From an uncultured Gammaproteobacteria bacterium (GTDB taxonomy: Bacteria > Pseudomonadota > Gammaproteobacteria > JAADHQ01), in the NCBI GenBank assembly GCA_947258655.1, contig CAMYJD010000017.1, positions 1 to 44,442 on the forward strand: a stretch of 44,442 bases of DNA. The letters are read 5' to 3'. The translations under genes and the position numbers were made by a program. Shown piece after piece: positions 17,157-44,442 of this stretch. Under the pieces are notes generated by a model. It was not told the DNA's origin and did not search any database. It saw only the letters and a program-made list of their open reading frames with translations. The stretch's first letter is position 1. Every line of letters begins with the position of its first letter.

Positions 17157-17429
<273 letters not shown>

Positions 17430-42722: not shown

Positions 42723-42794
42723 ACTCAACGTTTAAGCTGTGCGGCGCTAACGAAGCGCAGCGTAGTTTGCGTCCGAACGAGCGTCTTGTTAGGC
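42723..42794 (-). other. Candidate integron attC recombination site
   Basis: Read on the minus strand, a 72-base site starts GCCTAAC (42794-42788, R'' consensus RYYYAAC) and ends GTTGAGT (42729-42723, R' consensus GTTRRRY). Between them GCTcgttCGGaCGC and GCGCCGcacAGC can pair with unpaired bases, around a central CGCTGCGC turn. The TAA stop of the neighbouring gene lies within GCCTAAC, which is typical for cassettes. I judge it by pattern only. Confidence 0.7.
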
Positions 42795-43940
42795 TGGTTT
42801 AAATTCAAGCTTCAATCTCTCAATAATGATCTGATTAGTTTGCTCGACGTCTTTTAGCTTTTCATATATTTCAAATTTTCTATTCCCTCTATCACTCAAA
42901 ATACGGCTACTAACGCTACCTATTACTCCAAGCCACCAAGTATTTGTTATTGCTGCAATTCCACCACCGACTAGGTAGCTTAAATATGTTTTACCTGACC
43001 TATCTCCAGCGCTTTTTGCTTTTTCATATAATGTAAGACTTTCATTCTTGTAAGATGTAAATGCAATGAAGGCAAGTGCAAACAACGGAGGCGTGTAATC
43101 CATTGCAAGCTCAGAAGCATCTACTGCGTCATCAAGTGCATCAACAAGTTCTACGTTACTTATTGATCCATTCGTTATGTTTTCACTAATACCACTCATA
43201 ACAAGGTGGCTGTAGACTTCATCGGTTGTGACAACATCAATACTCGGATATTTTTCAAGCGCATCTTGCACATAAGAAACCGAGTCTGTTGCTTTGGCCT
43301 GGAGAACTGATGCAATTTCGCCGTTTGCGCCTTCAATTGCTATATCCCATCCTGGCTGAACTGAGGATTCAGCAAGAATTGCAGTATAGCCATCGGGTAG
43401 GTTCCCATTATTTAGGTATTCAACATATTTTTGTTCAAATAATTTCCCCTTAACTCCCGCGATGAAACCTGCCAAGGAGTCGCCATCTAGTTCACGAACT
43501 TTATCTTCAAATGATATTGAATCAGAAAGGTTTGGATATGCGGCTTCGTATGCATTTATTATTTCCTCAGGGATAATTCCGGCTGAAAGCAAGCCAACTA
43601 GTGTTTCCCCTCCAATTACGATTGAGTCAACGGTAGTACTTTGACGATTAAGTTCTCGATAATACCCGCCTTGATTTTCTATACGATTTTCTAGGTTCTT
43701 TAGATCACTTTCTGAGTACTTAATGTCTCGATAAATATTTGAAGCTGTATCAGATGCTGAATCATAGGTGCTAGATACGTATTCTCTACCAGTTTTTAGT
43801 GCTTCTTTTCCTTGCTCATGAAGTTCGTCCTTATTTTCATCCCAGTACTCTTTGGCTGTTTTACCTGCATCGGATGCATGACCAACCGCTTTCTCAGCCA
43901 GCCTAACTCCTTCCGAGAATATCTCTTTGAGTTTCTTCAT
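42789..43940 (-). CDS. Cassette-encoded membrane protein with predicted PD-(D/E)xK-like nuclease core
   Basis: 383 residues, family not recognised. The N-terminal 100 residues are helical and charged (amphipathic repeats such as GKTAKEYWDENKDELHEQGK). The middle has KGKLFEQKYVEYL (Glu169), then PGWDIAIEG (Asp199), then VLQAKA (Gln214, Lys216). This Glu ... Asp-x14-Gln-x-Lys order with hydrophobic flanks is what a restriction-endonuclease-like core looks like. Two hydrophobic segments follow (about 283-297 and 319-341), then a charged tail. Low GC and cassette position imply transfer. A defence or toxin role is inferred, not shown. The start lies nine bases after the attC-like junction; the TAA stop is inside the next attC. 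Confidence 0.7.
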   Translation of the reverse strand: MKKLKEIFSEGVRLAEKAVGHASDAGKTAKEYWDENKDELHEQGKEALKTGREYVSSTYDSASDTASNIYRDIKYSESDLKNLENRIENQGGYYRELNRQSTTVDSIVIGGETLVGLLSAGIIPEEIINAYEAAYPNLSDSISFEDKVRELDGDSLAGFIAGVKGKLFEQKYVEYLNNGNLPDGYTAILAESSVQPGWDIAIEGANGEIASVLQAKATDSVSYVQDALEKYPSIDVVTTDEVYSHLVMSGISENITNGSISNVELVDALDDAVDASELAMDYTPPLFALAFIAFTSYKNESLTLYEKAKSAGDRSGKTYLSYLVGGGIAAITNTWWLGVIGSVSSRILSDRGNRKFEIYEKLKDVEQTNQIIIERLKLEFKPA

Positions 43941-43947
43941 ATCTAAA

Positions 43948-43999
43948 GCCTAACAGTATGATAACTGAGACCCCGGGGTCTCGTTATCATGTTTTAGGG
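43948..43999 (-). other. Short attC-like palindromic element, copy 1
   Basis: The core is ATGATAACTGAGACCCC (43958-43974) paired with GGGGTCTCGTTATCAT (43975-43990). The stem is exact except for one extra T, resembling the extrahelical base of attC hairpins. The outer ends, CCTAAC on the left and GTTTTAGG on the right, also pair after a short mismatch. On the minus strand it ends GTTAGGC (R' consensus), followed directly by the 383-residue gene. Confidence 0.7.
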
Positions 44000-44010
44000 T
44001 TAACTTAATA

Positions 44011-44358
44011 TTATTCATCTATTGGTGACCAATCAGTAACAGCAACAAATTGTTCTTGGTTTTCACCTTTTTCAAATACGCTTCCAATTGGTGAATCAAT
44101 AAAGGGTATAATACTAGGATCATAATTAGCTATTGTATTTACTGCATAGATACCATGATTGTCTGCATTATTTATATATTCATTATCTTCAAACCCAGAC
44201 ATAAAACGCCACCCACTATCTTCTTCTCTATCAGGATTCTCTCTATACATAAACCGAATGGGATAACCATCAACTACAATTTTATCAGTAGCAAAGCATG
44301 CACTATGATCTTGTACTAGAGGCTTAATTTCTTCCCTTGAAAGTTTAAACTTCTTCAT
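44011..44358 (-). CDS. DUF2185 (Imm33-like) protein, cassette-encoded
   Basis: 115 residues, soluble and acidic. Matches the DUF2185 pattern: CFATDKIVVDGYPIRFMYRE, then DSGWRFMSGFEDNEY, DNHGIYAVNTIANYDPSI and PFIDSPIGSVFEK. DUF2185 belongs to a set of domains predicted as immunity proteins against polymorphic toxins (Imm33-like) and is often found alone. Here it lies inside the cassette-like array, upstream of the predicted nuclease gene, both flanked by near-identical palindromes. A direct toxin-immunity pairing is possible but unproven. The start lies 10 bases after the GTTAGGG junction. Confidence 0.85.
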   Translation of the reverse strand: MKKFKLSREEIKPLVQDHSACFATDKIVVDGYPIRFMYRENPDREEDSGWRFMSGFEDNEYINNADNHGIYAVNTIANYDPSIIPFIDSPIGSVFEKGENQEQFVAVTDWSPIDE

Positions 44359-44368
44359 TCTTCAATAA

Positions 44369-44419
44369 CCCTAACAGTATGATAACGAGACCCCGGGGTC
44401 TCGTTATCATGTTTTAGGC
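44369..44419 (-). other. Short attC-like palindromic element, copy 2
   Basis: Same sequence as copy 1 apart from lacking the extra T: ATGATAACGAGACCCC (44379-44394) and its exact complement (44395-44410) form a perfect 32-base palindrome, framed by CCTAACAGT and GTTTTAGGC. On the minus strand it runs from GCCTAAAAC to GTTAGGG. The last base of R' deviates from the GTTRRRY rule, so recombination competence is uncertain. Confidence 0.65.
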
Positions 44420-44442
44420 TATTTATCATTCTTCACAATAAA
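44419..44442 (-). CDS. Possible 3' end of another cassette gene (partial)
   Basis: Only seven codons (FIVKNDK) and a TAG stop are visible before the window edge on the minus strand. The other two minus frames have stops in this stretch. The stop abuts the rightmost attC-like element, as expected for a cassette gene. Too short to identify. Confidence 0.25.
   Translation of the reverse strand, partial: FIVKNDK

Follow-up and report, generated by a model that had tools for sequence, protein, structure and literature searches.

Twin palindromic elements at the end of a gammaproteobacterial cassette array are probably compact integron attC sites with an attI-like core

The attC sites of integrons, such as attC-aadA7 and VCR, consist of R''/R' and L''/L' inverted repeats with a crossover at G|TTRRRY, lie 3' of the cassette gene and have an R'' complementary to the start of their own cassette. 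R'' and the first bases of its cassette are hundreds of bases apart and meet only in the circle. In the deltaattI-type cassettes of class 1 and class 2 integrons, a piece of attI replaces the attC (PMC12901181); most of these pieces are 14–18 nt, the longer ones being a 244-nt deltaattI2 and a complete attI1 (PMC12901181). The model of Partridge et al. 2000, as outlined in PMC12901181, invokes an exchange between the L box of attI and R'', and in L-box reactions of attI with attC, attI would end up downstream of the cassette (PMC4792948).

The elements analysed here resemble ordinary attC in their inverted repeats, crossover, position and R'' complementarity, and resemble deltaattI-type cassettes in having, in the place of attC, an attI-like piece that ends at the crossover and could stem from an exchange of the attI L box with R''. 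They differ from ordinary attC in a core that equals an attI core and is conserved from genus to genus, in an R'' that ends TAAAA, and in their 9/7-nt spacer and 5-nt loop; most also lack an extrahelical base in the L stem. Unlike deltaattI-type cassettes, they comprise 39 nt with the full L-L palindrome plus a cassette-matched R'', are foldable and attC-like, and form a family present in many genera.

The window, the whole stretch of DNA analysed (44,442 bp), is an entire contig (C17) of a 3.48-Mb genome in 92 contigs, and the cassette array continues past its right end. An earlier note on this DNA had pointed to two elements that differ by a single T and contain a 16+16 palindrome, and the sequence bears out both points. 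The copies lie at 43948–43999 and 44369–44420; copy 2 contains a perfect 32-nt palindrome (44379–44410, half-length 16), the sole perfect one with a half-length above 8 in the window, and copy 1 is identical to copy 2 over 32 nt (43967–43998), with one additional T at 43966 in the left arm. An identical pair of 32-mers is expected by chance about 5e-11 times, and both copies fold much more strongly than their shuffles (z −5.2 to −7.3). On the minus strand, which is the gene strand, the left end of the elements reads CCTAAAAC and the right end GTTAGGC or GTTAGGG, matching the ends previously reported. A single 115-aa gene separates the copies, and the minus-strand order is site 2, Imm33 gene, site 1, 383-aa gene, ordinary attC and a chromosomal histidine-kinase gene:

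44369–44420, minus strand: probable compact attC site 2, closing a cassette whose gene is beyond the contig end (covariance model, 53 bits); R'' GCCTAA, palindrome 44379–44410, R' GTTAGGG, crossover G|TT between 44375 and 44374
44011–44358, minus strand: Imm33 cassette gene (PF09951; DUF2185 in GenBank relatives), 115 aa (Pfam Imm33, E 3e-35)
43948–43999, minus strand: probable compact attC site 1, 3' end of the Imm33 cassette (covariance model, 48 bits); R'' CCCTAA, extra base 43966, crossover between 43954 and 43953
42789–43940, minus strand: gene of the last cassette, 383 aa; stop codon inside the R'' box of its own attC
42745–42794, minus strand: ordinary attC closing the 383-aa cassette; R'' GCCTAAC, R' GTTAGCG, one extrahelical T on the L'' side

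The Imm33 gene shows 70% DNA identity with DUF2185 genes of Priestia plasmids; searches of Pfam and NCBIfam with the 383-aa protein returned no match. The R'' of site 1 (CCCTAA) is complementary to the start of its own Imm33 cassette, TTAGGG, the pairing extending to 9 of 9 bases (TAACCCTAA/TTAGGGTTA), and its R', GTTAGGC, is part of the next cassette. Likewise, the 383-aa cassette starts with TTAGGCT, complementary to AGCCTAA of its ordinary attC; this attC is the final site ahead of the histidine-kinase gene, and is not singled out by minimum-free-energy folding alone. It is also about 50 bp long and only 1.2 kb away, so the short length that the earlier note had taken as the odd feature is not what sets the twin sites apart. 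What is unusual in compact sites is the conserved palindromic core, the usual absence of extrahelical bases and an R'' ending TAAAA. The region of the ordinary attC (42731–42791) is 95% identical to a site of the Thiolapillus brandeum plasmid pTBH13, where three places match it; this would reflect a cassette pool common to the window genome and a Chromatiales plasmid. Elsewhere, at 17387–17421, the window contains a tandem run of about five copies of the 7-base unit GCTAGTG.

We scanned 84,980 species genomes with the core pattern, which yielded 74 loci; about 40 of them are gammaproteobacterial and have the same layout (Thiodiazotropha, Thiogranum, Ectothiorhodospiraceae and other MAGs). A covariance-model search found compact sites in 20 of 369 genomes of the class, from 19 genera; relatives also occur in dozens of genomes of sulfur oxidisers, and about 60 sites in all were examined. 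An IntI (E 1e-60 or better) was present in 16 of the 20 genomes with compact sites and in 128 of the 349 others (Fisher p 1.5e-4). The family consensus is NNNTAA-AAATGTA-TAACGAGAC-5 nt-GTCTCGTTA-ATNNAACTG|TTA. An Rfam search gave sub-threshold matches only and a phage search nothing relevant; in viral contigs the window-type core had no match and the general core hit one unrelated palindrome, and among plasmids the compact core was found in the Tenderia plasmid only. We found no description of such a site family in the open-access literature, and it is apparently undescribed. Compact sites break the RYYYAAC consensus, and attC finders built on it may miss them.

The public-genome search proposed in the earlier note placed the sites at the cassette junctions of arrays in many genomes. 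A genome of the same genus (G003) has three copies of the window-type site and at least two of a sister type, in an array with one site per cassette and uniform gene orientation; gene orientation is also uniform in the Tenderia array. In both, compact and ordinary attC alternate, in both orders, and the junction is always G|TT. Furthermore, in two genomes of the Thiodiazotropha group one and the same right flank follows a compact attC in one and an ordinary attC in the other, and the switch is exactly at G|TT. The sequence CTG|TTA is present in nearly all of about 67 sites, with an R' of the GTTRRRY type and its G|TT crossover at the cassette border; the last base of R' is not always Y, as in GTTAGGG of window site 2. 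Conversely, R'' does not follow RYYYAAC and instead reads NNNTAA followed by A, the deviation that had been noticed from the window alone.

We compared R'' with cassette starts. Complementarity of at least 6 bp between R'' and the start of its own cassette occurred in 12 of 31 consecutive pairs, compared with a mean of 1.8 and a maximum of 8 in 10,000 permutations (p about 1e-4); with the start that follows in situ, it occurred in only 3 of 52 cases. In some of the pairs without such complementarity an ordinary attC intervenes, which is directly visible in the Tenderia plasmid (L202). Complementarity of this kind is the signature of a circular cassette with a folding attC. Array junctions, junctions common with canonical attC, R'' complementarity and the genome-level co-occurrence with IntI all speak for the minimal attC family that the earlier note had envisaged, a reading further supported by the correspondence between these cores and the attI of a true IntI clade (see below). 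Compact sites are thus a variant within known integron attC, neither a terminator family nor the sites of a new recombinase, and the twin elements very probably are compact attC sites that bound the Imm33 cassette at the array end.

According to the mechanism that we propose, each compact site would end one cassette and IntI would exchange cassettes at G|TT in R'. In the excised circle, R'' would pair with the first bases of its own cassette and the bottom strand would fold; the modelled circle form has a 7-bp R stem, an unpaired spacer of 9 and 7 nt, an L stem of 9 bp (at least 9 bp in the general scheme) and a short, 5-nt loop. Recombination by IntI, and the strand used, are deduced here from sequence comparison. 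L'' and L' pair, but most L stems have no extrahelical base, and where one exists it usually stands on the arm opposite to that of ordinary attC: the L stem lacks any extrahelical base in 29 of 52 circle forms, and seven have one on that opposite arm. Position, junction and R pairing thus mark the sites as attC, of a variant structure. The proposal that the T of the twin elements is an extrahelical base applies to copy 1, which does have the extra T; as a family feature an extrahelical base was rejected, being mostly absent. The published strand rule (PMC2727003) would predict weak polarity, or crossover at R'', for such sites. Contrary to the weak polarity expected under this rule, compact-site arrays look polar, and the shape of the spacer or a reading of the sequence itself may set polarity. 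With most of them lacking the features thought to determine strand choice, compact sites offer a natural test of what IntI needs.

The leading sites of many arrays have, upstream of the same palindrome, a conserved region of about 170 bp in which the motif TATAACGAGAC recurs. As expected of attI, this region is found immediately upstream of an IntI gene in three genomes: Tenderia electrophaga (plasmid CP013100; G243), Thiodiazotropha (L113) and a third one (G128, L201). The IntIs of these three, together with that of locus L106, form one clade (100/94). In the three loci, intI is divergent from and adjoins the core-bearing attI, and both full-length IntIs pass the curated cut-off. The Tenderia plasmid holds intI, attI and compact attC together, and the other two loci hold intI plus attI. 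From its repetition upstream in attI, TATAACGAGAC is probably an integrase-binding motif.

To examine the likeness of attI and attC, we compared them base by base within genomes (19 attC, four genomes); the four include the Tenderia plasmid, which carries the cognate integrase. Identity was 98% from −39 to −1 and 25%, chance level, to the left of −46; at −40 the two were never equal (0%), attC always having the A that closes R''. Both borders of the identity, at R'' and at the crossover, are thus sharp to one or two bases, and identity is higher within genomes than between permuted genomes (p 5e-5). In all 19 attC, a 39-nt core of attI ending at the crossover therefore occupies the place of attC. 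Compact sites also share with these chromosomal-integron attI the crossover and, where intI is present, the cognate integrase clade; in contrast to attI, they lack an adjacent intI and upstream direct repeats, and their R'' differs and matches the cassette start. At 45 other IntI loci, for most of which about 1 kb was checked, reuse of the attI core as attC was not seen. Arrays of other IntIs at three loci (L203, L204 and L103) contain compact attC without that attI. As a separate observation, the attI of several chromosomal integrons (L103, L159, L167, L171, L191, L199 and L009) have a palindrome just ahead of the crossover, with a sequence particular to each integrase, so attI may be more hairpin-like than usually described.

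These comparisons point, with fair probability, to a hybrid origin, in which an R'' half was joined to a transplanted palindromic attI core. A strand exchange by IntI would have involved the R'' of the attC that a cassette carried before and the left (L-box) core of attI, leaving the cassette's own R'' (NNNTAA) followed by the 39-nt palindromic core. Since the core carries both presumed IntI-binding arms, the product would be a hairpin attC, and it could spread into arrays of other IntIs. The direction of copying, from attI to attC, is likewise suggested by the sequences, and the additional direct repeats of TATAACGAGAC, present in attI only, favour attI as the source. A site built of R'' and a copy of the local attI, bordered by the two crossover points, is a concrete and testable route for the origin of attC and cassettes. 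More tentatively, and with somewhat less than even confidence, IntIs of this clade might still be minting new attC by welding the attI core onto cassette R''; such sites, without extrahelical bases, would be recognised in part from their sequence, as attI is, and the attI and attC types of recognition would merge.

Alternatively, one integrase clade could have selected the same binding palindrome in both sites, with gene conversion maintaining the likeness, or attI could have taken its core from attC. The repeats of the probable integrase-binding motif upstream in attI and the wide spread of attC copies among genera would fit with this. However, the identity includes bases of the loop and spacer without an obvious binding role, it breaks off sharply at both borders, and the arrays of other IntIs have compact attC without that attI; we thus regard this explanation as unlikely. 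Far less probable still is that the elements serve as intrinsic terminators of transcription or are some other structural repeat located between genes. They do have a GC-rich, strongly folding stem 3' of genes, and compact sites may have a side role in termination, but no run of T follows the stem, where the gene strand reads ATACTGTTAGG. Moreover, the conserved part reaches G|TT, R'' covaries with a cassette start hundreds of bases off, and the sites alternate with ordinary attC as cassette borders. The gammaproteobacterial copies examined are in cassette arrays or attI, unlike the terminator family without any link to gene turnover that the earlier note had named as the outcome that would refute it, and a terminator would leave the identity with attI unexplained.

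Equally improbable is that these are the sites of a different tyrosine recombinase, either Xer-like or carried by a transposon, whose cassette-like insertions come to lie beside integrons. An Xer-like gene does lie about 500 bp from one attI-like site (L066), and in four places the crossover is the exact position of an IS91-like element that carries a tyrosine recombinase of its own. Nevertheless, an IntI gene is divergent from and adjoins the core-bearing attI in three loci, and the common junctions of ordinary and compact cassettes mean that one type of enzyme suffices. Another strand-folding recombinase, the second option of the earlier note, is not needed either, as the linked recombinases pass the curated integron-integrase cut-off.

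The single intact integron integrase of the window genome, which scores 458 bits (cut-off 265), lies at the end of contig C5, separate from the contig of the compact sites, with attI, the first cassette and an ordinary attC coming after it; an integron integrase is also present in all three other genomes of the genus. The attI of this resident IntI is of a different type, its palindrome differing from the compact-site core, and no IntI of the cognate clade was found in the window genome. The genome has two cognate attI sites without intI (C6:33138 and C61:966); the latter, which precedes a serine-hydrolase gene, is decayed and, at 90%, is the only close attI for the window sites. The absence of a cognate IntI, together with orphan cognate attI and a resident attI of another type, indicates that the window sites were probably imported from, or are relics of, the other type of integron. 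Since the only IntI of this genome uses a different attI, the two window cassettes may be immobile today or be served by a non-cognate IntI; compact cassettes are present in non-cognate IntI arrays elsewhere (L203, L204 and L103), so they may still be mobile.

The orphan compact-type attI at C6:33138–33190 (L207) has CTGTCAG in place of TTRRRY past the crossover position, and no intI or cassette was seen nearby. The same full attI of the resident type occurs three times in the window genome (C5:173917–174846, C2:180815 and C34:1343), once with the intact intI and twice next to decayed intI remnants. We had considered the resident IntI as the maker of the window sites and rejected it, because its attI palindrome differs and the two further copies are complete attI beside intI remnants, not attC. 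This IntI has 465 aa, with about 150 additional N-terminal residues.

In Tenderia, 200 bp of common sequence follow both a compact attC and attI. We rejected this sequence as a moved cassette: it belongs to the IS91-like element mentioned above and does not count as evidence for IntI action. The element, which encodes its own tyrosine recombinase, is inserted exactly at G|TT in four places (L213, L214, L215 and L216, in the Tenderia genomes G243 and G350), with the junction before TTGAACTAAACCGC. One of its insertions follows a compact attC, one an attI and two att-like flanks, and it looks as if this element targets integron crossover points.
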